From Ruegeria sp. R13_0 (lineage in GTDB: Bacteria; Pseudomonadota; Alphaproteobacteria; Rhodobacterales; Rhodobacteraceae): a stretch of 64,000 bases of DNA. The notes under the pieces are model-generated. The model made no database searches, was not told where the DNA came from, and worked only from the letters and a program-made list of their open reading frames with translations. The position numbers were made by a program, and so were the translations under genes. The stretch is taken from assembly GCF_017743995.1 (NCBI RefSeq), contig NZ_JAGHRB010000002.1:1-64000 (forward strand), in the 5' to 3' direction. This document shows, one piece after another, positions 31,459 through 47,267 of this stretch. The stretch's first letter is position 1. Every line of letters begins with the position of its first letter.

Positions 31459-32541
31459 TCACTTGCGCATGGACAGGCCGTTATGGAACAGATGCACTTT
31501 TTCCGGCCGTGCTGTGACCGAAACCTGCTGCCCGCGAAGGTTCCGTTGAATACCGGGCAGTTTTGCGATGACCTGATCCGCGCCGTTGGATTTGGCAAAA
31601 TATAGCAGAGTCACCTCACCCAATGCTTCGGTGAAATCAACCTCACCGCTCAGGATCGGGTCGCTATCCGTCAAAGTGAAATCTTCGGGCCGGACGCCGA
31701 TGTTTACCTGCTTGCCTTCATCTTCCGTCCCGGTCGGAATCGCAGAAATCGCTGAACCTCCGCCCTCCAAGGCTATCGTCGTCATCTGCCCAGTGCCCGT
31801 GATTGTTCCGGGTAACAAGTTCATTGAAGGCGAGCCGATGAATTGGGCCACGAACTCATTGTCCGGGGTTTCATATAGCTCAAGCGGGGTGCCAACCTGG
31901 GCGATGCCTTTGTTGGCCAAAACCACGATGCGGCTGGCCAAGGTCATCGCTTCGACCTGATCATGGGTCACATAGATCATGGTGCTGTCTGGCATCGCCT
32001 CTTTGAGGCGCGCAATCTCAATCCGCGTGGCGACGCGCAGCGCTGCATCGAGATTCGAGAGCGGCTCATCAAACAGATAGACCTTGGGGTCCCGCACAAT
32101 CGCCCGCCCAATCGCAACGCGCTGGCGCTGACCGCCAGAAAGGGCTTTGGGTAGGCGATCAAGGTATGGGTCCAATTGCAGAATTTGCGCCGCGCGCTCA
32201 ACAGCAGCGTCGATCTCTGCGGCAGGCCGTTTGGCGATCTTGAGCGCAAAAGACATATTCTCGCGCACGGTCAGATGCGGATAGAGGGCATAGGACTGGA
32301 ACACCATCGCGATGCCGCGCTGCGCGGGCGGCACGTCATTCATGACCTGACCTTCGATCTCCAGCGTGCCACCGGTGATCTTCTCCAGCCCCGCAATCAT
32401 CCGGAGCAGAGTGGATTTTCCGCATCCGGACGGGCCAACAAAGACGATCAACTCGCCCTGTTCGATATCCAGATCAATGTGTTTCAGGACATCAACTGGT
32501 CCATAGGATTTCGCCACATCTGTGAGTTTGAGTTCCGACAT
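31459..32541 (-). CDS. aglK: Alpha-glucoside ABC transporter ATPase
   Basis: A 360-residue MalK-type ATPase: Walker A GPSGCGKST, signature LSGGQRQRVAIGRAI, Walker B VYLFDEPLSNLD, switch His in YVTHDQVEAM, and a C-terminal OB regulatory domain (NIGVRPEDF, VTARPEKVHLF). It starts 3 bases after the alpha-glucosidase stop and is the last gene of the aglEFGAK operon, in the order known from rhizobia. It energises the import of alpha-glucosides such as maltose, sucrose or trehalose. Confidence 0.92.
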   Translation of the reverse strand: MSELKLTDVAKSYGPVDVLKHIDLDIEQGELIVFVGPSGCGKSTLLRMIAGLEKITGGTLEIEGQVMNDVPPAQRGIAMVFQSYALYPHLTVRENMSFALKIAKRPAAEIDAAVERAAQILQLDPYLDRLPKALSGGQRQRVAIGRAIVRDPKVYLFDEPLSNLDAALRVATRIEIARLKEAMPDSTMIYVTHDQVEAMTLASRIVVLANKGIAQVGTPLELYETPDNEFVAQFIGSPSMNLLPGTITGTGQMTTIALEGGGSAISAIPTGTEDEGKQVNIGVRPEDFTLTDSDPILSGEVDFTEALGEVTLLYFAKSNGADQVIAKLPGIQRNLRGQQVSVTARPEKVHLFHNGLSMRK

Positions 32542-32544
32542 GAC

Positions 32545-34200
32545 TTACCCCTTGTCCTTGCGCATCAGGCAGAATTCGGCAGGTTGCAGCGTGACGCGAC
32601 CTTCACCTGTGACACTGCCAATGTCCTGTCCAATTGCCTGCCAGCTGCCCGAGGGCAGATCGACCTGCCCTGCTTCGCTTCCCAAATTGAAGGCGCAGAA
32701 CACCTCTTCGTTGGGGTTTTCGCGGCGGAAAACGAGGACGGGGCCGACTTGCTCCATCTCCGATTGTGCCCCTGCAGCCAGCGCCGGATGTGCATGTCGC
32801 AGAGCAATCGCGCGGCGATAGTGGTGCAGCATGGATTGATCATCCGCCTCCATACGATCAACCGCGCGTTCGGACTGTGCCGCACTGACAGGCAACCACG
32901 GCTCGCCGGTGCTAAAGCCCGATTGTTCATCCTGAGTTGCCCAGACCATCGGCGTCCGGCACCCGTCGCGGCCTTTGAACCCGGGCCAGAACTCAACGCC
33001 ATAGGGGTCTTGCAAGCGCTCGAAAGGCACATCGGCCTCAGGCAGGCCCAGTTCCTCGCCCTGATACAAACAGGCCGAACCGCGCAGGCACATCATCAGA
33101 ACCGCGTGTTGGCGCGTTGCTGCATCGCTGAGGTTCCAGCGGGAGGCATGACGTTGAACATCATGGTTCGAGAACGCCCAACAAGGCCAAGCATCTCCGG
33201 CCTTGGCCTGAAGCTGGTCGAACACCTGTTTTGCGTAAGCCGCTGTCAGCGCGCGTTTTTCCAGGAACTCGAACGCGTAGCACATGTGCATACGGGCGTC
33301 ACCCGAGGTGTATTCCCCCATGATCTCAAGCCCGCGCTGCGCATCGCCGACCTCACCCAGACAGGCGCGTCCTTCGTATTCGTTGGTCAACGCCCGAAGC
33401 CGCTCCAGGAAGGCGATGTTTTCCGGCTGACTTTTGGAATAGAGGTGATTCTGGTGGTTGTATGGATTCACTGCAGGCGCAATCGAGGCATTGCGTTCCT
33501 CGACCGGCAGCGCGGGGTTATCGCGCAACTGCTTGTCGTGGAAATAGAAGTTGATCGTGTCCAGGCGGAAGCCATCGACCCCCATCTCCAGCCAGAACCG
33601 GGCCACGTCCAGCAGCGCGTCCTGCACCTGTTCGCAGTGGAAATTCAGGTCCGGTTGCGAGGTCAGGAAGTTGTGCAGGTAGTATTGCAGTCGGCGCGGG
33701 TCCCACTGCCAGGCAGATCCTCCGAAGATCGACAACCAGTTGTTCGGCGGCGTCCCATCGGGTTTGGGGTCGGCCCAGACATACCAATCGGACTTCGGAT
33801 TGTCCCTTGAGGCACGGCTTTCGCTGAACCACGGGTGTTGATCCGAAGTATGAGACAACACCAGATCAATCATCACTTTCAGACCCTTTGCGTGGGCCTG
33901 ACCCAGTAGCTCTTGGAAATCCTCAAGCGAGCCGAACATCGGATCGACATCACGATAATCGCTCACGTCATAGCCGAAATCCTTCATCGGCGACTTGAAG
34001 AAAGGCGAAATCCAGATCGCATCGACGCCGAGCGAGGCGATATAGTCGAGCCGTTGGGTGATCCCTTTCAGGTCACCAATCCCGTCGCCATTGCTGTCCT
34101 GAAAGCTGCGCGGATAGATCTGGTAGATCACCCCGCCCCGCCACCAGTCTGACGGTGCTTTGGTTGAGTTGGATAGGTCTACGGTGTTTTGCACGTTCAT
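32545..34200 (-). CDS. aglA: GH13 alpha-glucosidase
   Basis: A 551-residue cytoplasmic GH13 enzyme. The barrel start is GGVIYQIYPRSFQDSNGDGI. The four conserved regions are visible: DLVLSHTS, DGFRLDTINF (nucleophile Asp), CLGEVGD (acid/base Glu) and FSNHDVQRH (transition-state Asp). No signal peptide, so it hydrolyses imported alpha-glucosides inside the cell. It lies between permease and ATPase genes of the agl operon, as in other alphaproteobacteria. Related enzymes include trehalulose/isomaltulose-type and oligo-1,6-glucosidases; specificity is not settled by sequence reading. Confidence 0.9.
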   Translation of the reverse strand: MNVQNTVDLSNSTKAPSDWWRGGVIYQIYPRSFQDSNGDGIGDLKGITQRLDYIASLGVDAIWISPFFKSPMKDFGYDVSDYRDVDPMFGSLEDFQELLGQAHAKGLKVMIDLVLSHTSDQHPWFSESRASRDNPKSDWYVWADPKPDGTPPNNWLSIFGGSAWQWDPRRLQYYLHNFLTSQPDLNFHCEQVQDALLDVARFWLEMGVDGFRLDTINFYFHDKQLRDNPALPVEERNASIAPAVNPYNHQNHLYSKSQPENIAFLERLRALTNEYEGRACLGEVGDAQRGLEIMGEYTSGDARMHMCYAFEFLEKRALTAAYAKQVFDQLQAKAGDAWPCWAFSNHDVQRHASRWNLSDAATRQHAVLMMCLRGSACLYQGEELGLPEADVPFERLQDPYGVEFWPGFKGRDGCRTPMVWATQDEQSGFSTGEPWLPVSAAQSERAVDRMEADDQSMLHHYRRAIALRHAHPALAAGAQSEMEQVGPVLVFRRENPNEEVFCAFNLGSEAGQVDLPSGSWQAIGQDIGSVTGEGRVTLQPAEFCLMRKDKG

Positions 34201-34209
34201 CAGACGCCT

Positions 34210-35358
34210 CTATTTTACGGATCCGGCCAACAGGCCCCGGACCAGGTATTTTTGCATTGCGAAGAACACGACCAGCGGCACAAAGATCGACACGAAGGCC
34301 GCCGTCGCGAGGATTTCCCAGTTGCCGCCTCGCGTGCCCAAAAGCTCGACGATGCGGTTGGTCATCACGGTGGTCTGGCCGGTCGCATCGATCAGGAAGA
34401 CCTTGGCGACCAGCAGGTCGTTCCATGTCCATAGGAACTGGAAGATCGCGAAAGAGGCCAGCGCCGGGAAGCTGAGCGGCAGGATCAGTTTGGTGAAAAT
34501 CTGGAACTCGGTCGCGCCATCGACACGGGCGTTCTCGATCAGATCGCGCGGCAATCCGGCCATGTAGTTGCGCAGCAGGTAAATCGCCAGCGGCATACCA
34601 AAGCCAGTATGGGCCAGCCAAACGCCCAGATACCCTTTGCCGATCCCGATATTCAGATGGAATTTCAACAGCGGGATCAACGCCAATTGCAAGGGCACAA
34701 CCAACAGCCCAACGACGGCCGCGATCAGAAGCGCACGGCCCGGAAACTCCATCCACGCCAGTGCATAGGCTGCGAAGGCCGCAACGAGGATCGGGATGAT
34801 TGTCGCGGGTATCGTCACCGTTAGCGTGTTGAAGAAGGCTTTGGCCATACTGTCGGAACTACTTTGATCCAGCAGGACCTTTCGGTAGTTGTCCAAGGTG
34901 AATTCCGGCGGCAATTCGGCCGTGACGAACACACGCGCACCTCGGTTTCCGGTGAACTCCTCAGTGTTTTCCATCCTGTAGGCGCCGTTCGCGTCAACGG
35001 TGATCGTGCCGCCTCGACGCAGCTCGGCGGTGTCGCCGGGAACAAAGGCGTCAACCTCACGGGCACTGATACCCCAGTTCGAGATCTTGACCTGCTCGTC
35101 ATCCCCGAAAAGCTGACCTTCGATTACGTAGAGACCGTTCTCCAAAACCTGCGTTTCAGGTGCAGCGCTGCGCAGGGTCAGGTTCTGCTCGGACGGAAAA
35201 ACCGACCGCCACCAGCCGCTGCCAGAGATCTGGTCCGCGGTCCGGAAAGATGAGATCAGCAGACCGAGGGTCGGGATCACCCAAAGCACCACCAGAAAGA
35301 CAACCGAGGCATGGACGACCCAGCGCAGTGCCGGTTTGGTTCCTGCAATATCGCTCAT
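34210..35358 (-). CDS. aglG: Alpha-glucoside ABC permease, AglG-like
   Basis: A 382-residue permease. After the first membrane segment (VVHASVVFLVVLWVIPTLGLLI) there is a periplasmic insertion of roughly 110 residues, which makes AglG-type subunits longer than MalG. The core has the EAA loop IENARVDGATEFQIFTKLIL and ends QKYLVRGLLAGSVK. Its start lies 3 bases after the stop of the AglF gene. The pair forms the membrane channel of the alpha-glucoside importer. Confidence 0.9.
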   Translation of the reverse strand: MSDIAGTKPALRWVVHASVVFLVVLWVIPTLGLLISSFRTADQISGSGWWRSVFPSEQNLTLRSAAPETQVLENGLYVIEGQLFGDDEQVKISNWGISAREVDAFVPGDTAELRRGGTITVDANGAYRMENTEEFTGNRGARVFVTAELPPEFTLDNYRKVLLDQSSSDSMAKAFFNTLTVTIPATIIPILVAAFAAYALAWMEFPGRALLIAAVVGLLVVPLQLALIPLLKFHLNIGIGKGYLGVWLAHTGFGMPLAIYLLRNYMAGLPRDLIENARVDGATEFQIFTKLILPLSFPALASFAIFQFLWTWNDLLVAKVFLIDATGQTTVMTNRIVELLGTRGGNWEILATAAFVSIFVPLVVFFAMQKYLVRGLLAGSVK

Positions 35359-35361
35359 GGC

Positions 35362-36369
35362 CTACTCCATTTCCTTGCGCGCATTGCGCACGTTCCAGAT
35401 CAGGATCGGAGTGACCAGCAACATGATCACCATGGCCGAGGCCGACCCTACCCCCCAATCATTGGCGCGGAACAGTTTGTCGTACATGTAGTTGGCCAGC
35501 ACCTGCGTCTCCCACTGCCCGTTGGTCATGGCAAAGACGATGTCGAAGACCTTGAGGACGGTGATGGTGATTGTCGTCCAGACCACCAGAATTGTTGTCT
35601 TGATCTGAGGCACTTTGATCTTGAAAAAGATCTGGAACGGGTTGGCCCCATCCAGAATGGCGGCCTCGACCGTTTCCTCGGGGATGCCGCGCAAGGCCGC
35701 CGACAGGATCACCATGGCAAACCCGGTCTGAATCCAGACCAGAACGATCATGAGGAAGAAAGAGTTCCAGAACGGAACGGTCAGCCATGTTTGCGGTTCA
35801 GTCCCGCCGAAGAAGATATAGAGGGCGTTTAGAATGCCGATCTGATCCTGTTCCGCTGGGCGCGCGTCATAGACCAGTTTCCAGATCACCGAGGCCCCCA
35901 CGAAGGAAATCGCCATCGGCATGAAGATCAGCGACTTGGCAAAGTTGCCCCACCGGATGCGATCGGTCAGCTGCGCCACGAGCAGACCAAAACCGGTCGA
36001 CATCGCGGGCACCACGATCAGCCAGAACATGTTGTTGCGCATGGCTTCCCAGAATTTCGGCTCGGCCGCCATCTGAGTGTAGTTGTCCAGACCAACCCAT
36101 CTGTACCCGCCGCCGGGCACGCGCTCCGTGAGAGAAAGACGCAGCGTCTCAACCACCGGATAGGCCAGATAGAGGCCAAGCGCCGCCAGCGCGGGGAACA
36201 GAAACAGCCAGGGCCGGATCATGTTCGCGCGGTTGATATTGCGCCCTGCATTCGGCCCACGCGGCGGGAACAGGACTTTGTCCAGAAATTGGTTCGAGAG
36301 ATAGAAGTAGCCCACGCAACCCGACACACCGATGATGATGGTCAGCAGGCCCTGAAGTGCCGGTGTCAT
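35362..36369 (-). CDS. aglF: Alpha-glucoside ABC permease, AglF-like
   Basis: A 335-residue permease with an extra hydrophobic segment at the N-terminus (LLTIIIGVSGCVGYFYLS) before the usual WLFLFPALAALGLYLAYPVV. The EAA loop reads VEAAILDGANPFQIFFKIKV. It follows the binding-protein gene after a 55-base gap with a hairpin and is coupled to aglG. Confidence 0.9.
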   Translation of the reverse strand: MTPALQGLLTIIIGVSGCVGYFYLSNQFLDKVLFPPRGPNAGRNINRANMIRPWLFLFPALAALGLYLAYPVVETLRLSLTERVPGGGYRWVGLDNYTQMAAEPKFWEAMRNNMFWLIVVPAMSTGFGLLVAQLTDRIRWGNFAKSLIFMPMAISFVGASVIWKLVYDARPAEQDQIGILNALYIFFGGTEPQTWLTVPFWNSFFLMIVLVWIQTGFAMVILSAALRGIPEETVEAAILDGANPFQIFFKIKVPQIKTTILVVWTTITITVLKVFDIVFAMTNGQWETQVLANYMYDKLFRANDWGVGSASAMVIMLLVTPILIWNVRNARKEME

Positions 36370-36424: not shown

Positions 36425-37783
36425 TTACTTCGCGGCATCCCACGAGGACTGGATTTCACCCGCAACGGTGGCCGCGTCCTTCGCGCCCGAGGAATAGTCG
36501 ACCATGCCGGTCCAGAACGTGCCCGCACCGACCGCACCCGGCATCAGGTCTGAGCCGTCAAAGCGGAACGTGGTGGCGTTGGTCAGAATTTCACCCTGAC
36601 CGCGTTGCGTGTCATTGGCATAATTCTCGGGGTTTGCCCCCAGATGCGGCGTCAGGAACCCGTCCTGAGACATCATGATCTCATGCGCGAATGGGGTCTT
36701 GAGGAACTCCATGAACACTTCAGTCGCCGGGCTTGGGTTCGTGATGGTAAATAAGGTGCCCGCGCCCAGAACCGGAGTACCCAGATCCTTCTCGGCATAG
36801 GCCGGAAAATAGAAGAAATCGGCATCCACGCCCAGCTCTGTCCCTTCCGGGAAATAGGCCGGGATGAACGAGGCCTGACGGTGCATCATGCAAGCAGGCG
36901 GGCTGTCAAACAGGCCCTTGGGGCTATCGCGGAAATCGATCGCAGCCGTGTCGTCTGCGTTCCCAACCACATAGTCGTCATTGCGGGTAAAGCTGCCATA
37001 TTCCTCAATCGCGGCAATCACGCGCGGATCGTCAAACTTCATCTCATTCGACACCCATTGGTCGTAAACCTCAGGCGGTTGCGTGCGCAGCATCAGGTCC
37101 TCAACCCAATCCGTCGCAGGCCAACCCGTTGCGCCACCGGATGCGAGGCCGACGCACAGCGGCGTCTCACCGTCTTCGACCATCTGATCCATAAGCGCTT
37201 TGAACTCTTCCATGGTCTCAGGGACCTCGTAGCCGAAGTCCTCGAAGTTCTCAGGGCTGTACCAAACCAGAGACTTGACGTTCACGTTGAAGAAGAAGCC
37301 GTAGAAATCCCTGGCTCCGTCTGCGTTTTCAAAAGTTCCCAGATCGACCCAGGACTGACCGGCCGCGAAATTATCCTTGATCCAGTCCGCCGATCCATCG
37401 GCAAGCGGCGTCAAATAGCCGTTCTTGGCCATGTTCGCCGCAAGGCCGGGCTGCGGGAAAACCGTCAGGTTTGGCGCTGATCCGGCTGCGGCGTCGATCA
37501 AAATCTGCTGCTCCAGCGAGTCTGACCCGACATAGCTGGAACTTGCGCCTGTTGCCTCATCGAAATAAGCGACCAGATTTTCGAAGGACTGTCCTTCGCC
37601 CGCAAGCCAGGGGCCGAAAATGGTCAGGTCCTGACCGCTTAGATCATGAGCGTCTGCAAAGGCCTGGAACCCGTCCCAGTCAAAGCCGCCCTCTCCAACG
37701 GGGTGGATCATCTGACCCTGTGCGTGAACAGCCCCGGCAGTCAGGGCAAACGTGGCCACACCTGCGTACAGCGTGCGTTTCAT
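36425..37783 (-). CDS. aglE: Alpha-glucoside periplasmic binding protein, AglE-like
   Basis: A 452-residue CUT1 binding protein. The start MKRTLYAGVATFALTAGAVHA is a clean signal peptide, preceded by GGGAGGAG; the longer frame to 37831 passes through the promoter and is rejected. The mature protein contains DLTIFGPWLAGEGQSFENLV and SYVGSDSLEQQILIDAAAGS, typical of AglE. It is the first gene of the operon read away from aglR and lies behind a LacI-type operator. Confidence 0.9.
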   Translation of the reverse strand: MKRTLYAGVATFALTAGAVHAQGQMIHPVGEGGFDWDGFQAFADAHDLSGQDLTIFGPWLAGEGQSFENLVAYFDEATGASSSYVGSDSLEQQILIDAAAGSAPNLTVFPQPGLAANMAKNGYLTPLADGSADWIKDNFAAGQSWVDLGTFENADGARDFYGFFFNVNVKSLVWYSPENFEDFGYEVPETMEEFKALMDQMVEDGETPLCVGLASGGATGWPATDWVEDLMLRTQPPEVYDQWVSNEMKFDDPRVIAAIEEYGSFTRNDDYVVGNADDTAAIDFRDSPKGLFDSPPACMMHRQASFIPAYFPEGTELGVDADFFYFPAYAEKDLGTPVLGAGTLFTITNPSPATEVFMEFLKTPFAHEIMMSQDGFLTPHLGANPENYANDTQRGQGEILTNATTFRFDGSDLMPGAVGAGTFWTGMVDYSSGAKDAATVAGEIQSSWDAAK

Positions 37784-37826
37784 GAAATCTCCTCCCAATA
37801 CTCTCCAGCGCCTTCTCTTCGCGTTT

Positions 37827-37999: not shown

Positions 38000-39034
38000 A
38001 TGAACCTCAAGCAGCTCTCTGAAACACTGGGTCTTTCGCAAACCACGGTCAGCCGGGCGCTGAACGGCTACCCTGAGGTCAACGCTGAAACACGTCTGAG
38101 GGTTGAGGCTGCTGCAGCCAAACACGGCTACCGCCCTAACAGCCGCGCCAAAGGGTTGGCGACGGGCAAGTCCATGGTCATCGGTCACGTCATCCCCAGC
38201 TCATCAAGGCATGAAATGGTGAACCCGATCTTCGGCGATTTCGTCGCCGGAGCATCAAAAACATATGCCGAGCATGGCTATGACATGATGTTCACCAACG
38301 CCGATGACACCTCGATCGAGGCGGCCTATCGCAATCTATTTCAACGCGGAGCGGTCGACGGTGTCGTGCTGCAGGGCCCAAAGGTCAACGAGCCAAGGAT
38401 CGAGGTTCTGACGCGCATGGCGGTGCCGTTCATCGTTCATGGCCGCTCAACCGGCGTGCAGGCCGAATATGACTGGATTGATGTGAACAACAAAAGTTCG
38501 TTCCAGCGCGCGACGCAGTTTCTGATTGATCTGGGCCACCGTCGCATCGCCCTGATAAACGGGCTTGAGGATATGGACTTTGCCCAACGTCGTCGTGCCG
38601 GATATCTGGACGCTCTGCAGCAGGCAGGGCTGATGCCGGATGCCGCCTTAATGCGCAGCGCCGAAATGACCGAGGTCTATGGCCATCGGGAAACCCATCA
38701 GATGCTGCAGATCGCAGAGCCACCGACCGCAATTCTAGCATCGTCGATGATCACTGCCATAGGCGTGCGCCGCGCGCTGGAAGAAGCCGGGCTGCAGATG
38801 GGGCGGGATATTTCAGTCATCGCCCATGACGATGATCTTTCCTACCTGAAAAATGGTCAGGATGTGCCGATCTTCACCGCAACGCGGTCCTCGGTTCGGG
38901 ACGCTGGCGAAATGGCCGCCGAGATGCTGATCCAGCGGATCAAGTCTCCGGCAGCGCCGGTGCAAACTAGTTTGCTTGAGGCCGAGTTGGTCGTCGGGCG
39001 ATCAACCGGGCCTGCGCCCACCGGGGTGCGGTGA
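38000..39034 (+). CDS. aglR: LacI-family regulator of alpha-glucoside genes
   Basis: A 344-residue LacI-type repressor beginning MNLKQLSETLGLSQTTVSRA, so the recognition helix starts within the first 20 residues. The core has SMVIGHVIPSSS, GVVLQGPKVNEPR and HRRIALINGLEDM. It diverges from aglEFGAK and leads the operon with the GH1-glucokinase fusion; operators lie on both sides of the gap. It probably responds to an alpha-glucoside or glucose. Confidence 0.9.
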   Translation: MNLKQLSETLGLSQTTVSRALNGYPEVNAETRLRVEAAAAKHGYRPNSRAKGLATGKSMVIGHVIPSSSRHEMVNPIFGDFVAGASKTYAEHGYDMMFTNADDTSIEAAYRNLFQRGAVDGVVLQGPKVNEPRIEVLTRMAVPFIVHGRSTGVQAEYDWIDVNNKSSFQRATQFLIDLGHRRIALINGLEDMDFAQRRRAGYLDALQQAGLMPDAALMRSAEMTEVYGHRETHQMLQIAEPPTAILASSMITAIGVRRALEEAGLQMGRDISVIAHDDDLSYLKNGQDVPIFTATRSSVRDAGEMAAEMLIQRIKSPAAPVQTSLLEAELVVGRSTGPAPTGVR

Positions 39035-41361
39035 TGAAATACACACGCAAAGACTTCCCCGACGATTTTCTATTCGGCGTCGCAACATCCGCCTACCAGA
39101 TCGAAGGCCACGCTCAAGGCGGTGCGGGTCGGACGCATTGGGACAGTTTCGCGGCCACGCCCGGAAACGTTGTCGGCGCGGAAAATGGCGCCCTCGCCTG
39201 CGATCACCTGAATCGGTTCGAAGAAGATTTTGATCTGGTTCAGGATGCTGGGTTTGATTGCTATCGCTTTTCGACCAGCTGGGCGCGTGTTTTGCCCGAA
39301 GGTCGTGGGCATGTAAACCAAGCTGGGCTGGACTATTACGACCGCCTAGCGGACGCGCTGCTTGAACGCGGCATCCGCCCCTGTGCGACGCTCTACCACT
39401 GGGAGCTGCCTTCGGCGCTTGCCGATATGGGGGGCTGGCGCAATCGGGATATCGCCGGGTGGTTCGCCGATTTCACCCAAGTGATCATGGGCCGGATCGG
39501 AGACCGCATGTATTCGGTCGCGCCGATCAATGAGCCGTGGTGCGTCAGCTGGCTCAGCCATTTCGAAGGCCATCACGCACCGGGTTTGCGTGATATTCGC
39601 GCGGCCGCACGTGCGATGCATCATGTTCTTCTGGCCCATGGCAGCGCCATTCAGACAATGCGCAGCCTAGGCATGTCCAATCTGGGCGCTGTCTTCAACC
39701 TAGAATGGGCGGAGCCTGCGGATGATGGCGCGGCTGCACAGCAGGCGGCCGCGCTCTATGACGGGATCTACAACCGGTTTTTCTTGGGCGGCGTGTTCAA
39801 AAAAGCCTATCCCGACAACGTGCTGGAGGGGCTGGAGCCTCATTTGCCCGAAGGTTGGCAAGATGACTTCGACACTATCGGGGCACCTGTCGATTGGTGC
39901 GGCTTGAACTACTACACCCGCAAGCTGATTGCCTCGGCAGACAGTGCATGGCCAAGCCTGACCGAAGTGCCCGGCCCTCTGCCCAAGACCCAGATGGGTT
40001 GGGAGATCGACCCCGACGCCCTGACCCGATTTCTGAAAAGGACCGCAGAAGACTATACCGGTGATCTTCCGATCTATGTTACAGAGAACGGCATGGCGAG
40101 CGCCGAGCGCCAGCAGGATGATGAGCGCATCGCCTATCTGGACTCTCACTTGACGGCGGTTCAACAGGCTTTGGCCGCAGATGTACCCGTAAAGGGGTAT
40201 TTTATCTGGTCTTTGCTGGACAACTACGAATGGGCCTATGGCTATGAAAAACGGTTTGGATTGGTAGACGTGGATTTTGAGACGCTGGACCGCAAACCCA
40301 AAGCCTCCTTCGCTGCCGTAAAGGCCGCACTTTCCGAGGGCGCCGCCGACCGGCAGGCTTATCGCCAGCCGTCTGGGTCTTTGCGTCCACATTGGACATT
40401 GGTGGCCGATATAGGTGGAACGAATACGCGTCTGGGCGTTGTCTCCGATGGTAAGCTGACCGCATTGCACAAACACCCGACGGGCACCCTGCCTGATCTG
40501 CTGAATGCGTTGCATGATATACGGGATGAGATCGGCACCGCGCCGCAAGCCGTGGTCGCAGCCGGGGCCGGACCGGTGCGTGACGGGCGCATCCAACTGA
40601 CCAACGCGAATTTGGACCTGTCCGAGGACGCCCTGGCCAAGGCGACAGGGGCCGCCAACACCTATGTAATCAATGACTTCACCGCAGCAGCGTGGTCCGT
40701 GGCCGAAGTGACCGAAGCTGAGGTATCTGTGCTGCAAGGCTCTGCCACTCCGCCGATGGGCACGCGTTTGGTCGTTGGGCCTGGAACCGGTTTGGGTGTC
40801 GGTGCGCTGCTCTACTCCGAGGGGCATTTCCACACCGTTTCGGGCGAAGGCGGCCATGTGGGCCTGTCCCCACGCACGCGGGATGAGGTCGACGTCTTCG
40901 ACGCAGCCCGCCATCTGGCACCCGAATGCTTTTTCGACAACAGCCTCGTACTTGAGGCCGAAATGTTCCTCAGTGGAACCGGCTTGCCAATCCTCTATCA
41001 AGCCGCTGGCATGGCGGCTGGGCAAGCACAGCCTCCGGTTCGCACTGCCCGAGATATTCTGCAGGACGCACGCGACGGTAAGGACCCGGTCGCCGTTCGC
41101 ACCGCAGATTTGTTCATAAGCCATCTGGGTGCGTTGATGGGTGATATGGCCGTCACAGTGATGCCTGCCGGTGGCGTCTTCCTTGTGGGTGGCGTCGCCG
41201 AGAAAAACCGCTGGATGTTTGGCGAAACCTTCTGCGACGCGTTCAATGCAGGCGGGCGCTTCAGCGAGTTGCGGCAGTCGATGAACCTTTATATCTCGGA
41301 ACAGGCCGAATTTGGCATTGTTGGCGCTAACAACTTCTGTAAAAATGCGCTTCAGCGATAA
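39034..41361 (+). CDS. Fused GH1 beta-glucosidase and glucokinase
   Basis: A single open frame of about 775 residues with two complete enzymes. Residues 1 to about 436 are a GH1 beta-glucosidase: FLFGVATSAYQIEG, TLYHWELPSAL, the acid/base Glu in PINEPW (about 167) and the nucleophile Glu in YVTENG (about 351). After a linker of about 18 residues, a full-length glucokinase starts with LVADIGGTNTRLGVV (about 457), followed by VINDFTAAAW, VVGPGTGLGVGA and SGEGGHVGL. All catalytic motifs of both parts are intact. The fusion could hand glucose released from a beta-glucoside straight to phosphorylation. The ATG at 39034 overlaps the aglR stop (TGATG); a GTG at 39031 is also in frame. Usually these are two genes. 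Confidence 0.9.
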   Translation: MKYTRKDFPDDFLFGVATSAYQIEGHAQGGAGRTHWDSFAATPGNVVGAENGALACDHLNRFEEDFDLVQDAGFDCYRFSTSWARVLPEGRGHVNQAGLDYYDRLADALLERGIRPCATLYHWELPSALADMGGWRNRDIAGWFADFTQVIMGRIGDRMYSVAPINEPWCVSWLSHFEGHHAPGLRDIRAAARAMHHVLLAHGSAIQTMRSLGMSNLGAVFNLEWAEPADDGAAAQQAAALYDGIYNRFFLGGVFKKAYPDNVLEGLEPHLPEGWQDDFDTIGAPVDWCGLNYYTRKLIASADSAWPSLTEVPGPLPKTQMGWEIDPDALTRFLKRTAEDYTGDLPIYVTENGMASAERQQDDERIAYLDSHLTAVQQALAADVPVKGYFIWSLLDNYEWAYGYEKRFGLVDVDFETLDRKPKASFAAVKAALSEGAADRQAYRQPSGSLRPHWTLVADIGGTNTRLGVVSDGKLTALHKHPTGTLPDLLNALHDIRDEIGTAPQAVVAAGAGPVRDGRIQLTNANLDLSEDALAKATGAANTYVINDFTAAAWSVAEVTEAEVSVLQGSATPPMGTRLVVGPGTGLGVGALLYSEGHFHTVSGEGGHVGLSPRTRDEVDVFDAARHLAPECFFDNSLVLEAEMFLSGTGLPILYQAAGMAAGQAQPPVRTARDILQDARDGKDPVAVRTADLFISHLGALMGDMAVTVMPAGGVFLVGGVAEKNRWMFGETFCDAFNAGGRFSELRQSMNLYISEQAEFGIVGANNFCKNALQR

Positions 41362-41389
41362 CTGAGCGTAATTTGGAAGAGGATGTGGG

Positions 41390-42316
41390 ATGATCCTGTG
41401 TTGCGGAGAAGCCCTGATCGACATGATTACTGAGCCGACCCTGTCCGGGCAGGACGGTTTCGTTCCCCATTCCGGCGGAGCTATATTTAATACCTCTATC
41501 GCTTTGGGCCGGTTGGGCGCGCCGGTTGGCCTGCTGACCGGTCTGTCCTCGGACATGTTCGGGCGGCAATTGGCTGATGACCTGAGGGCCAGCCATGTGG
41601 ACACGACACATGTGATTGCCTCGGACAGGCCGACCACGCTGGCGTTTGTTCAACTGAAGGACGGTCACGCCACATACACGTTTGTCGATGAAAACACTGC
41701 GGGTCGGATGCTGCGGGCCGAGGATATGCCGCGCCAACTCCCCGCGGTTTCAGCGCTGTATTTTGGTGGCATCAGCCTTGCCTGTGAGCCTTGCGCGGAT
41801 GCCTATGCCGCGATGCTGGCGCAACATGGCGCGAACTGTGCTGTGATGTTGGACCCCAATATCCGACCCGGTTTCATACAGGATCAGACCCGCTACCGCA
41901 CGCGGTTGAACCAGATGATAGAACAGGCCGATATCGTCAAAGTCTCGGATGAGGATCTAGATTGGATCATCCCCGGCCCTGAAAGTCACGATCAGAAAGT
42001 CCCCCTGCTGCTTCAAGCAGGCCCCTCCGCCGTCATCGTCACCCGCGGGAGCGAGGGCGCCTCAGGCTATCTGGCCAACGGCACGGTGGTCTCAGTCCCT
42101 GTCAAACCGGTGCAAGTCGTGGATACGGTTGGCGCGGGGGACACGTTTAACGCCGGGGTTCTGGCCTCGCTGGAACAGGCTGGCCAGCTGACAAAGCCGG
42201 GCTTGAAAGCACTGTCCCCGGATGCGCTACGTGATGCTTTGACCTTGGGCGCAGAGGTGGCTGCTGTGACCGTCTCGCGCGCCGGAGCCAACCCGCCCTG
42301 GTCGCATGAACTATAG
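41390..42316 (+). CDS. PfkB-family sugar kinase, probable fructokinase
   Basis: A 308-residue ribokinase-fold kinase. The N-terminal sugar-binding part reads CCGEALIDMI and HSGGAIFNTSIALGRLG; the ATP/anion-hole motif with the catalytic Asp is VDTVGAGDTFNAGVL. The form is that of fructokinases. It lies 28 bases after the fusion gene and before a D-lyxose/mannose isomerase, so fructose from sucrose hydrolysis or from mannose isomerisation is the likely substrate. The ribosome site GAGGATG precedes the start. Confidence 0.85.
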   Translation: MILCCGEALIDMITEPTLSGQDGFVPHSGGAIFNTSIALGRLGAPVGLLTGLSSDMFGRQLADDLRASHVDTTHVIASDRPTTLAFVQLKDGHATYTFVDENTAGRMLRAEDMPRQLPAVSALYFGGISLACEPCADAYAAMLAQHGANCAVMLDPNIRPGFIQDQTRYRTRLNQMIEQADIVKVSDEDLDWIIPGPESHDQKVPLLLQAGPSAVIVTRGSEGASGYLANGTVVSVPVKPVQVVDTVGAGDTFNAGVLASLEQAGQLTKPGLKALSPDALRDALTLGAEVAAVTVSRAGANPPWSHEL

Positions 42317-42334: not shown

Positions 42335-43000
42335 ATGAAACGATCCGAAATCAACCGTATCAAGACCGAAGCCCAGGCATTCATCAGTTCATTTGGTACC
42401 GTTCTGCCGCCTTTCGCAGATTGGACACCTGAGCAGATGCGCAGCGCCCAGGCGGACAGTATCCGTGCCCATGGGCTAGGTTGGGATATCACCGACTACG
42501 GTCAAGGCAAGTTTGATGAACTTGGGTTGTTCCTGTTCACCCTGCGCAACGGCAACGTCAGCGATCTGAGCCGGGGGCGCGGTATGCTATATGCCGAAAA
42601 GCTACTGATCTCTCGCGACAAACAGCTGTCGCCGATGCACCGCCATATCGTCAAAGCCGAGGACATCATCAACCGTGGGGGCGGCGATCTGGTTATGGAA
42701 ATCTATGCCTCGGACCCCGATGGCGGTATCGACCGGGATACCCCGGTCACCGTTCCAAGCGATGCCTGCCCTGTCACCATACAGCCCGGAGAGCATCTGC
42801 GCCTGAAGCCAGGCCAGAGCGTGACCTTGATGCCCGGCATCTGGCACGCCTTCTGGGCGGAAGGTGGGGATTGCTTGATTGGCGAAGTCTCTACCGTGAA
42901 TGACGACCGAACGGACAACGTATTCGAAGACCCGATCCCACGCTTTGCAACAATCGAAGAAGATGCAGCGCCGGATTTCCTGTTGGTTGCCGACTACTGA
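42335..43000 (+). CDS. D-lyxose ketol-isomerase family protein (D-lyxose/D-mannose isomerase)
   Basis: A 221-residue cupin-fold isomerase. Metal ligands are visible in LSPMHRHIVKAEDI (two His and Glu) and PGIWHAFWAEGG (His). The start MKRSEINRIKTEAQAFI and the RGRGMLYAEKLLISRDKQ region match the D-lyxose isomerase family, which turns D-lyxose to D-xylulose and D-mannose to D-fructose. Followed by a fructokinase-like enzyme in the same operon, the mannose-to-fructose reaction is attractive but inferred. It is the last gene of the aglR operon. Confidence 0.85.
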   Translation: MKRSEINRIKTEAQAFISSFGTVLPPFADWTPEQMRSAQADSIRAHGLGWDITDYGQGKFDELGLFLFTLRNGNVSDLSRGRGMLYAEKLLISRDKQLSPMHRHIVKAEDIINRGGGDLVMEIYASDPDGGIDRDTPVTVPSDACPVTIQPGEHLRLKPGQSVTLMPGIWHAFWAEGGDCLIGEVSTVNDDRTDNVFEDPIPRFATIEEDAAPDFLLVADY

Positions 43001-44179: not shown

Positions 44180-44519
44180 TCATTTCGTCCTGATATGCGG
44201 CATCTGCAATGGGCCGATCCCCGCGCATAAGGCGAAGGAAACGCTGGATAGCCAGCTGCCTGCTGGGTTCTCAACACGCCTGATCGACTGTATGGCCGGG
44301 TGTGACCGCCCGATGACGGTCGGGCTGTTGGCCAAGGGCAAGGCGCAATATCTGTTTGGCGATATTCAATCCCCTGCCGATCTGAGCGCTTTGGCCGAGT
44401 TCGCCCATCAGTTCCGGGCTAGCGAGGATGGTTGGACCAGCGCCTCGACCCGTCCTTTGGCGCTCTACACCAAAACCCTGTCGCGCATGCCCTGCCTGCC
44501 ACCGGAGGACGTGGCATGA
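44115..44519 (+). CDS. DUF1636 family metal-binding-like protein in B12 transport operon
   Basis: A cysteine-containing protein of the DUF1636 family. Recognisable parts are VLICGICNGPI, the DCMAGCDRPMTVGLLAKGKA segment and YLFGDIQSPADLSALAEFAH. Proteins of this family are often encoded next to cobalamin or cobalt genes; the Cys pairs suggest iron-sulfur or metal binding. The start is unresolved. The ATG at 44115 gives 134 residues with an odd hydrophobic lead (MQLMAFAFTRLLFK). A TTG at 44172 would give the short N-terminus usual for the family and would be coupled to the 27-codon frame before it. The stop overlaps the ATPase start (ATGA). Confidence 0.75.
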   Translation: MQLMAFAFTRLLFKSATRALADHFVLICGICNGPIPAHKAKETLDSQLPAGFSTRLIDCMAGCDRPMTVGLLAKGKAQYLFGDIQSPADLSALAEFAHQFRASEDGWTSASTRPLALYTKTLSRMPCLPPEDVA

Positions 44520-45292
44520 GCTTTCTGGTCGCTGAAAACCTGGAATACTACGCCCTGAACGGCGATGTTCTGCTGCGCGACACCTCGTTTACCCTTGAGG
44601 AAGGCGCGATATTGGCCGTTGCTGGCCCGAACGGGGCCGGCAAGACGACGCTGCTCAACCTCTTGTGCGGTGTCGCAAAACTGGCGCTGGGCGATGTACG
44701 TATTCAGGGCCAAAGCCTGCGGAAACTGTCGTCGCTAGAACGTGCCAGACGGATTGCCGTTGTCGGCCAGCAGGAAATACCCGACGGGCGGCTGCAACTG
44801 CGCGACTATGTAGCGCTGGGACAAATCCCAATCAGGGCCGACAAATCCGCCGAGGCTCTTCAAACGGACCTGCAGCGCGTGCTCGACATCACCGAACTGT
44901 CTCATCTGGCGGGCAAACAGATGGCACAACTGTCGGGCGGAGAGCGCCAGCGCGCCCATATCGCACGGGCTTTGGCGCAGAACCCCTCGCTGCTGTTTTT
45001 GGATGAGCCGACCAACCATCTCGACCCTGATGCCAAAGGGCACATGCTGTCTCTGGTGGCCGAGTTGGGTGTGACGGTTGTGATGATCGTCCACGATCTG
45101 GTCATGATCCCCGAATTCGCCAGCCACGTCGCCCTGATGAAGAACACACAGCTGACGGCCTTCGGCCCGGTCGCCGAGGTTCTGACCCCAGACCGCGTGC
45201 GCGAGACTTTTGGTGTTGACTATTTGTGTTTCCAGCACGAAGGACGCGTGATCCCCGCGCTGGACATCCGAAAACGAAAGCTTTCATCTTAA
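44516..45292 (+). CDS. btuD: B12-type ABC transporter ATPase
   Basis: A 258-residue ATPase of the iron-siderophore/B12 importer family. Walker A is GPNGAGKTTLL, signature LSGGERQRAHIARAL, Walker B LLFLDEPTNHLD, switch His in VMIVHDLVMI. The start at 44516 overlaps the DUF1636 stop; a longer reading to 44432 lies within that gene. Under the cobalamin riboswitch, B12 or a cobalt chelate is the likely cargo rather than a siderophore. Confidence 0.88.
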   Translation: MSFLVAENLEYYALNGDVLLRDTSFTLEEGAILAVAGPNGAGKTTLLNLLCGVAKLALGDVRIQGQSLRKLSSLERARRIAVVGQQEIPDGRLQLRDYVALGQIPIRADKSAEALQTDLQRVLDITELSHLAGKQMAQLSGGERQRAHIARALAQNPSLLFLDEPTNHLDPDAKGHMLSLVAELGVTVVMIVHDLVMIPEFASHVALMKNTQLTAFGPVAEVLTPDRVRETFGVDYLCFQHEGRVIPALDIRKRKLSS

Positions 45293-45304
45293 CAGGAGAG
45301 ATTG

Positions 45305-46255
45305 ATGAAACTGAAACTCTTGTCCGCTGCGGTACTAAGCGCACTGGCGGGCAGCGCTGCCGCGCAAGAGATCACCGTCGACAATTGCGGTGAACCTTTG
45401 GTGTTCGACACCAAGCCCGAGCGGATCGTAGTTCATGACATGAACATGACCGACATGGCCTTTGCACTGGGCCTTCAGGACAGCATCGTTGGTCTGACCG
45501 GCATCACCGGCTGGTACAAGACCAGCCCCGATTTCGACGCGCAGCGCGGTGACATTCCCGAACTCGCTCCGAAATACCCGACGGTCGAAAACCTCGTTGC
45601 GGTTGAACCCGACATGTTCTTCGCCGGGTGGTACTACGGCATGAAGCCCGGGGGTGACGTCACCCCCGACACGCTGGAACCCTTTGACATCAAGACCATG
45701 GTGCTGACCGAAAGCTGCATCCACCTGAACAAAGACCGCCCCGAAGCCAGCATGGATCTGCTGTTTGACGATGTTCTGCGTCTTGGCACCGTGATGCAGG
45801 TCGAAGATAAGGCGAACGCGCTGGTCTCGGGCTGGAAAGACCAACTGGCCGCGATCGAAGCCAAAACCGCCGATCTGGAAAAACCCCGTGTCTTCCTGCT
45901 GGACGGCCCGGCCGATGCGCCCTTTACCGCAGGCAAATACGCCATTCCTGACGCGATGATCGCAGCGGCTGGCGGCGTCAACGTTACTCATGACATGGAC
46001 ACTAGCTGGGGCCGCACCTCGTGGGAGGCTGTCGCCGCCTCGAACCCCGAATTCCTTGTCCTGCTGGACTATCAAACCGGCAACGGCGCGGCGGATACCT
46101 TCAAGTTCCTGCAGGAACACCCGGTGATGTCGCAGACCGATGCAGTCAAGAACGAGCGCTGGATCGGCCTGCGCTACGAAGAGCTGACACCGGGACCGGC
46201 AAATATCGAAGCGATCGAGAAGATGGCAACGGCGATGCACCGGGGAAACAGCTGA
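45305..46255 (+). CDS. btuF: B12-type periplasmic binding protein
   Basis: A 316-residue class III binding protein. A signal peptide (KLLSAAVLSALAGSAAA) ends before QEITVDNCGEPLVFDTKPER, the usual lead of this family. MFFAGWYYGMKPGG and AGGVNVTHDMDTSWGRTSWE resemble BtuF/FecB-type proteins. The ATG at 45305 follows an AGGAGA ribosome site; a TTG just before it is in frame but less likely. Ligand is inferred from the riboswitch. Confidence 0.86.
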   Translation: MKLKLLSAAVLSALAGSAAAQEITVDNCGEPLVFDTKPERIVVHDMNMTDMAFALGLQDSIVGLTGITGWYKTSPDFDAQRGDIPELAPKYPTVENLVAVEPDMFFAGWYYGMKPGGDVTPDTLEPFDIKTMVLTESCIHLNKDRPEASMDLLFDDVLRLGTVMQVEDKANALVSGWKDQLAAIEAKTADLEKPRVFLLDGPADAPFTAGKYAIPDAMIAAAGGVNVTHDMDTSWGRTSWEAVAASNPEFLVLLDYQTGNGAADTFKFLQEHPVMSQTDAVKNERWIGLRYEELTPGPANIEAIEKMATAMHRGNS

Positions 46256-46256
46256 G

Positions 46257-47267
46257 ATGACGAAAACGGGCCAAGCGGTCCTGCTGGGGGCGGTCATTCT
46301 GACCGCCCTTTTGCTGCTGTCGACGATCTATGGCACCACCCCGATCCCCTTGGCCGAGGTTTTCACCGCGATTGGGCTGGGTACTGGCGTGACTGAGGGC
46401 GACATGTCCCCTCTGCACCGGATCGTCTTTGACCTGCGCCTGCCCCGCGCGTTGTTTGCGGCGGTGATTGGGGCCGGGCTGGGTGTTGTCGGGGTCGTTT
46501 TGCAAACGACAACGCGCAATGATCTGGCTGACCCGTTTCTCTTTGGCCTTTCGTCCGGGGCCGCTGCGGGTGCCGTTCTGGTCATCACTGTGACAGGCGA
46601 TGTTCTGGGCATCTGGACCCTGCCGCTTGCGGCCTTTTGCGGGGGCCTGATTGCGTCCGGCATTGTTCTGGCCCTGGTTCAGAGCCTGCGCACCAGCGCG
46701 CCAGAGAAACTGATCCTCGCAGGCCTGGCTGTATCTTTCCTGTTTTCGGCCATCACCAACTATCTGATTTTCGCGGGCGACAGCCGCGCCGCGCATTCCG
46801 TCATTTTCTGGATGTTGGGCGGCCTTGGTCTGGCCCGGTGGGAGACCTTCCCCCTTGTCGTTTTGGGACTGGCCTTGATCTTGGGCTATTCCCTCTATCG
46901 CAGCCGCTGGCTCGACGCGCTTCTGACGGGGGATTTCACGGCCTCAACACTGGGCATTCCGGTGCAAGGCCTGCGGTTTCGGATGTTTCTGGTGGCCGCT
47001 TTGGCCACGGCCAGCTTTGTGTCGGTGGCGGGTGTGATCGGGTTTGTCGGCCTGATGGTTCCGCATATCGCCCGAGGCATCGCCGGAACGCTCCACCGCA
47101 GTCTCTTGATCACATCCGCCGTCGTCGGGGCCATCTTGCTGACGCTTTCAGACATCTTGTCCCGGCTGCTTCTGGCCCCGCAAGAGTTGCCGGTGGGGAT
47201 CGTTACAACCTCGATCGGGTCGCTGTTCGTGTTTCTCTACCTGTTCAAATCCTCACGATCTGACTAG
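46257..47267 (+). CDS. btuC: B12-type ABC permease (FecCD family)
   Basis: A 336-residue membrane protein with about ten hydrophobic segments, as in BtuC/FecCD. Typical stretches are LRLPRALFAAVIGAGLGVVG, DPFLFGLSSGAAAGAVL, GFVGLMVPHIARGIAG and the C-terminal LPVGIVTTSIGSLFVFLYLF. It starts one base after the btuF stop and ends 8 bases from the convergent response-regulator gene, with no terminator visible between them. Confidence 0.9.
   Translation: MTKTGQAVLLGAVILTALLLLSTIYGTTPIPLAEVFTAIGLGTGVTEGDMSPLHRIVFDLRLPRALFAAVIGAGLGVVGVVLQTTTRNDLADPFLFGLSSGAAAGAVLVITVTGDVLGIWTLPLAAFCGGLIASGIVLALVQSLRTSAPEKLILAGLAVSFLFSAITNYLIFAGDSRAAHSVIFWMLGGLGLARWETFPLVVLGLALILGYSLYRSRWLDALLTGDFTASTLGIPVQGLRFRMFLVAALATASFVSVAGVIGFVGLMVPHIARGIAGTLHRSLLITSAVVGAILLTLSDILSRLLLAPQELPVGIVTTSIGSLFVFLYLFKSSRSD

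Follow-up and report, generated by a model that had tools for sequence, protein, structure and literature searches.

The window analysed here, a stretch of 64,000 nucleotides from Ruegeria sp. R13_0 (contig NZ_JAGHRB010000002.1), contains a gene in which a predicted beta-glucosidase of glycoside hydrolase family 1 (GH1) is joined in frame to a glucokinase (Glk) (Table 1). The frame shows zero internal stops over 775 residues, and the fusion, first pointed out in an initial annotation of the sequence, is confirmed as a real observation. That annotation had named a sequencing error at the junction as one thing that would undo it and had called for a search of relatives for the same domain order. 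Thirty-one of 54 Ruegeria-group genomes share this order and keep the full-length frame stop-free (match over residues 1-774 or 1-775), and for this reason a sequencing error at the junction is excluded in practice. The same full-span open match was found in 23 of 80 named records, a set that largely overlaps with the 54 genomes; the other 57 are unfused. Three plasmid records also carry the full fusion (NZ_CP081107.1, NZ_CP045385.1 and NZ_CP031947.1; PLSDB, 389-811 kb), at least two of which look, by their coordinates, like genomes already counted. With the junction shared so widely and nothing found in its favour, we rejected an assembly or sequencing artefact that deleted a stop and a start, and assign it practically no probability.

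Table 1. Features of the fusion locus, in window coordinates.
Feature	Position	Strand	Basis or remark
Predicted GH1 beta-glucosidase:glucokinase fusion gene	39034..41361	+	775 aa plus stop; translation of frame
GH1 domain, residues 5-427	39046..40314	+	Pfam, TIGR03356
GH1 acid/base E167	39532-39534	+	alignment
GH1 nucleophile E351	40084-40086	+	alignment
Linker, residues 435-452 (~18 residues)	40336..40389	+	linker comparison, model
Glucokinase domain PF02685, residues 453-775, with D548, E605, H608, E643	40390..41358	+	Pfam, alignment
LacI-family regulator	38000..39034	+	its TGA shares one base with the fusion ATG (TGATG)
ATP-binding cassette (ABC) importer solute-binding protein, AglE-like	36425..37789	-	resemblance
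ABC permease, AglF-like	35362..36369	-	resemblance
ABC permease, AglG-like	34210..35358	-	resemblance
Alpha-amylase-family (PF00128) enzyme, AglA-like	32545..34200	-	resemblance for the Agl name
ABC ATPase, AglK-like	31459..32541	-	named from reading the translation
PfkB-family sugar kinase	41390..42316	+	28 bp downstream of the fusion; comes after Glk in relatives
D-lyxose isomerase family protein (PF07385)	42335..43000	+	

The domain composition of the protein was examined by hmmscan at E <= 0.001. The Glyco_hydro_1 domain (PF00232) covers residues 5-427 with 442 bits (cut-off 22.6) and the Glucokinase domain (PF02685) residues 456-770 with 222 bits (cut-off 22.1; profile positions 1-312 of 314), and no further Pfam family was found at this threshold. 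The GH1 half also exceeds the beta-glucosidase equivalog cut-off of TIGR03356 (538.5 bits vs 478.5) and carries both catalytic glutamates, the acid/base E167 and the nucleophile E351; it is thus predicted to be a beta-glucoside-hydrolysing enzyme. The Glk half contains the motifs IGGTNTR, GPGTGLG and GEGGH, and its D548, E605, H608 and E643, which we take to have catalytic site roles, align with the same residues in solved glucokinases such as 9duc. The description of two complete domains in one frame, separated by a linker of about 18 residues, therefore stands as the initial annotation gave it. The AlphaFold2 model has a mean predicted local distance difference test score (pLDDT) of 90, and residues 447-450, within the linker, form the sole stretch of three or more residues under 50. 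All 50 Foldseek matches listed were GH1 enzymes aligned to the GH1 half. On the strand opposite the fusion we also noted an open frame of 645 codons (window 39700-41637, minus strand).

Among the 54 genomes we distinguished four states, namely 31 with the full fusion, 19 with a fused remnant in which the GH1 part is divergent and shortened (L130-L148, e.g. L143:3235-5100), two with a Glk without recognisable GH1 (G038 and G045, the gene of the latter split across two contigs) and two with neither (G026, without a PF02685 match, and G029, with one distant match of 111 bits). The fused gene is the only PF02685 match wherever it occurs (50 genomes), and in the window's own genome it is also the sole GH1 gene found. 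A separate full-length GH1 lies beside agl-lacI genes in G038 and in 12 of the 19 genomes with a remnant; no other GH1 match was found in the remaining seven remnant genomes. The genome G025 (L013 and L167) is the mirror of these remnant genomes, in that one locus holds a whole fusion and the copy linked to agl is reduced to a broken piece of GH1. Since no stop interrupts the frame in 50 of 54 genomes (31 fusions and 19 remnants), the protein is likely made as one chain. The 1:1 ratio of GH1 and Glk proposed initially follows from a single chain, and holds with the same likelihood. The N-terminus shows no apparent signal peptide by eye, and we therefore take the protein to be probably cytoplasmic.

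The remnants differ from the full fusions most clearly at the active site. None of the 19 retains both catalytic glutamates (E167 is kept in one and E351 in four), and at eleven GH1 active-site positions the residue of the window protein is found in 27 of 209 cells. Protein lengths run from 720 down to 611 aa. Strand and loop retention, read by alignment to the model of the window protein, shows that all eight barrel strands are kept at 92-100% occupancy in both remnant groups (9 and 10 sequences) and that strand and helix positions are 89-95% retained. The catalytic-face loops, in contrast, are down to 35% and 60% (40-65% of positions lost), and helix 1 is mostly missing in the first group, the one with 35%. 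These proteins may be pseudo-glycosidases, with the catalytic pair lost and, by the alignment, the fold core kept. The remnants keep almost whole the loops that follow strands 2 and 3, with a D-x-GGWxNR stretch among them, and a contact of these loops to Glk is possible.

To describe selection on the remnants we used codon-model values, because the NG86 pair ratios, the highest of which was 0.59 (the close pair G003/G004), suffer from saturated synonymous sites and include three comparisons without a ratio. The codon-model omega was 0.28, 0.20 and 0.25 in three sets of 7, 5 and 4 sequences, covering 16 of the 19 remnants (G006, G032 and G002 left out). For intact GH1, and for the Glk parts of those remnant genes, the values were 0.05-0.06. 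Of the 272 columns filled in all 19 remnants, 40 are invariant, as against a mean of 1.45 and a maximum of 5 in 200 simulations run at equal rates along the fitted tree. The contrast is weaker, yet holds, within clade A, the seven strongly decayed remnants (71 of 278 invariant vs 25.3, standard deviation (SD) 5.0, maximum 43), and within clade B, five other remnants (108 of 324 vs 67.3, SD 7.2, maximum 90). Ninety-five positions conserved across 64 intact GH1 are also filled in every remnant; 29 of these are invariant, and the other 66 are altered in at least one remnant. By these measures, selection on the remnants is relaxed but present.

Such a pattern could also arise if the joining were incidental. 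Glk would then need the upstream start and ribosome-binding site, and a useless GH1 would shrink in frame by slow passive decay. Translation alone would account for the stop-free frame, and the varying lengths of the remnants, an omega several times that of Glk, the 66 altered positions and the two genomes with the GH1 domain wholly lost all agree with passive decay. On the other hand, omega is far below 1, and 40 columns are invariant. A passive leftover should moreover lose strands as readily as loops, whereas in both groups the loss is found in the catalytic-face loops and the eight strands are kept. This difference speaks mildly against incidental joining, although the mere need to avoid misfolding would yield a similar excess of loop over strand loss. 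We regard incidental joining as doubtful, though still deserving serious weight.

The interpretation that we favour, with modest confidence, is a bifunctional enzyme made as a single chain, in which the GH1 barrel is also structural for Glk. The N-terminal barrel would hydrolyse beta-glucosides and the C-terminal Glk would make glucose 6-phosphate. Coupling of the two steps, as the initial annotation proposed, is plausible by proximity, and direct channelling of glucose from GH1 to Glk is possible. However, 19 of 54 genomes keep the fusion without the catalytic pair, and coupling therefore cannot be what joins the halves there; a structural or translational reason must also exist. The barrel may serve Glk in folding, stability or assembly, and would for that reason have been simplified and not discarded. 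A stronger form of this proposal, in which GH1 now acts as a subunit, structural or regulatory, on which Glk depends, and was cut down in two or more independent events to a dead minimal triosephosphate isomerase (TIM) barrel, is one that we put forward tentatively and hold to be somewhat less than probable.

Outside the genus the two domains are encoded separately, at least in the matches listed. Across a family sample of 394 genomes, of which 392 lie outside the genus, each of the 48 two-domain matches listed contains at least one stop, which agrees with the initial view that these enzymes are normally separate genes. In a class sample of 385 genomes only the window's own match, among those listed, spans both domains; in both samples, no more than two first-look candidates were scored for each genome. 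Nine of the regions with GH1 or Glk in unusually long open frames did not contain GH1 and Glk in one frame. At the loci examined, Glks that stand behind a GH1 outside the genus mostly share 28-35% identity with the fused Glk. The closest type, with 41-48% identity, occurs in 12 of 394 genomes and lies directly behind a GH1 as its own gene, in another frame, in two of them (L246, with a spacer of 28 nt, and L248, with one of 4 nt and the same junction as the named record L079). With Glk in a different frame, loss of the stop as the sole change was rejected for these two nearest unfused pairs.

The separate Glk of L246 and L248 begins with Met, three residues and then Trp-x-Leu-x-Ala-Asp-Ile. 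A start-type codon occupies the same place in 25 of the 28 readable fusion linkers (ATG in 15, GTG in 9, TTG in 1 and none in 3; three of the 31 fusions, G023, G027 and G044, were unread by the linker pattern), and the old start region therefore appears to persist inside the fusion. In the window protein this place is the TTG of L450 (40381-40383), where most relatives carry ATG or GTG; it is presumed to be the former Glk start, and the linker stretch before it would be the former spacer. The persistence of the codon raises the question of whether two products are made, the full-length fusion and a free Glk from the linker. A Shine-Dalgarno-like stretch, defined by a motif rule, precedes this codon in only two of the 28 linkers, and any linker ATG or GTG in five; the window codon itself is a TTG without such a stretch. 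In addition, all 19 remnants are open over the entire upstream part, something that a Glk with a start of its own would not require. A free Glk product is therefore quite improbable.

The distribution of these forms was compared with trees and gene order. In the rpoB tree, for which we used a midpoint root and in which bootstrap support is not settled, full fusions make up the deepest branches, along with the two genomes without the gene. In the Glk tree the remnants fall into two separate starred groups, the first of 11 rows with zero full fusions and the second of 23 rows with full fusions and remnants mixed; the full fusions of G025 and G027 sit close among remnants, with weaker support. 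This suggests that decay happened at least twice. Seven remnants occupy the same site as the window's gene, with the agl-lacI block gone, nine follow genes for a gluconolactonase-like protein and a GH42 beta-galactosidase (e.g. L143:397-3161), and three lie elsewhere. The Glk cassette of G038 is likewise found behind the gluconolactonase-like gene and GH42, as is that of G045 at a contig end, so that Glk has joined another sugar operon. Traces like the 3' end of lacI were seen by eye ahead of many remnant starts, and a search for Glk relics near solo GH1 genes gave chance-level matches only (best E 0.5).

These results can be arranged in a course of events. Most likely, the stop of GH1 was lost from a lacI-GH1-glk operon early in the ancestry of the Ruegeria group, and translation came to include the region ahead of the old Glk start. 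The lacI-GH1 part would later have been copied away or lost, probably in at least two lineages, and the GH1 left on Glk would then have lost its catalytic pair and many active-site loops while the barrel core stayed under purifying selection. Copying followed by reciprocal loss explains both the remnant genomes and the mirror case of G025.

Several points weigh against this account and against the bifunctional enzyme. The Glks of G038 and G045 lack GH1, so the barrel is dispensable there, and 66 of 95 family-conserved positions are altered in at least one remnant. The equal-rate null used for the invariant columns is a simple one. The Glk half stays under the NCBIfam glk equivalog cut-off (TIGR00749, 163.2 vs 225.45), and we therefore file it as a member of the Pfam family and not as a certified equivalog. 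Two ROK-family genes above the family cut-off in the window's own genome, where they were sought, could supply another sugar kinase. The adjoining importer and alpha-amylase-family enzyme suggest alpha-glucosides as substrates. The predicted template modelling score (pTM) of 0.63 makes the domain-domain pose unreliable, as would be expected of two firm domains with an uncertain mutual pose. With regard to the origin, ten of the 12 closest Glks show no GH1 in flanks of ~1.5 kb or less, and the unfused spacers (4 and 28 nt) are shorter than the linker, so that indels or an insertion must also have been involved. The Glk tree is the product of a quick single-gene method, and transfer between species or gene replacement could mimic two decays. 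Finally, the separate GH1 of G038 is the first genus branch of the GH1 tree (92/91 for the rest), a placement that is also compatible with an ancestor in which the two genes were unfused.

The genes around the fusion look like a glucoside-use operon. The AglEFG-like importer, the alpha-amylase-family enzyme and the ABC ATPase are divergent from the LacI gene; we assigned the agl names by resemblance and take them as assumptions. Further downstream, at window positions 44432-47267, are genes for an ABC ATPase, a binding protein and a permease that look by eye like a siderophore or cobalamin importer.

We compared the fusion with known systems. It shares the whole fold and both catalytic glutamates with GH1 beta-glucosidases (TIGR03356; Thermotoga maritima 1oif, TM-score 0.92 on the target length), but differs in its C-terminal glucokinase, which none of the 60 solved sequences listed (of 198) is so named as to include. 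Residues 2-316 of the 323 of the Glk align to 9duc, a PF02685 glucokinase like 1q18/1sz2, with the site residues kept; the window Glk differs in falling below the TIGR00749 cut-off and in being attached behind a barrel domain. A Glk domain within a natural two-domain fusion is also described by NF010701, a bifunctional transcriptional regulator/glucokinase that we take to be the HexR-Glk of Burkholderia. In that profile, however, Glk is N-terminal and has a regulator as its partner; the window protein matches the Glk part only and does not reach the cut-off of 920 (136.6 bits). The remnants resemble the Klotho proteins, GH1-like barrels without a working catalytic pair that are kept for another role, in retaining a dead GH1-like barrel, although Klothos are animal membrane co-receptors without a kinase.

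No description of a GH1-Glk fusion was found in the open-access literature, which leaves out most subscription papers; in one passage of PMC8027193, 'glucokinase' refers to Stenotrophomonas. The architecture is present in sequence records already and, as far as these searches show, undiscussed in the literature. In the plasmid records 'ROK family protein' is the name given to the three full fusions, and 'family 1 glycosylhydrolase' that given to two remnants, and the fusion and remnant architecture explains these contradictory automatic names. The fusion would offer a naturally occurring pair of enzymes for successive steps on a single chain, suited to tests of whether proximity of a glycosidase and a kinase matters. 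One genus displays stages of a domain fusion: the fusion itself, copying with reciprocal loss, and a (beta/alpha)8 enzyme cut back toward its barrel core; the separate neighbours are found outside it. If GH1 has indeed become a subunit of Glk, then a full enzyme, graded intermediates and complete loss would coexist within this one genus.

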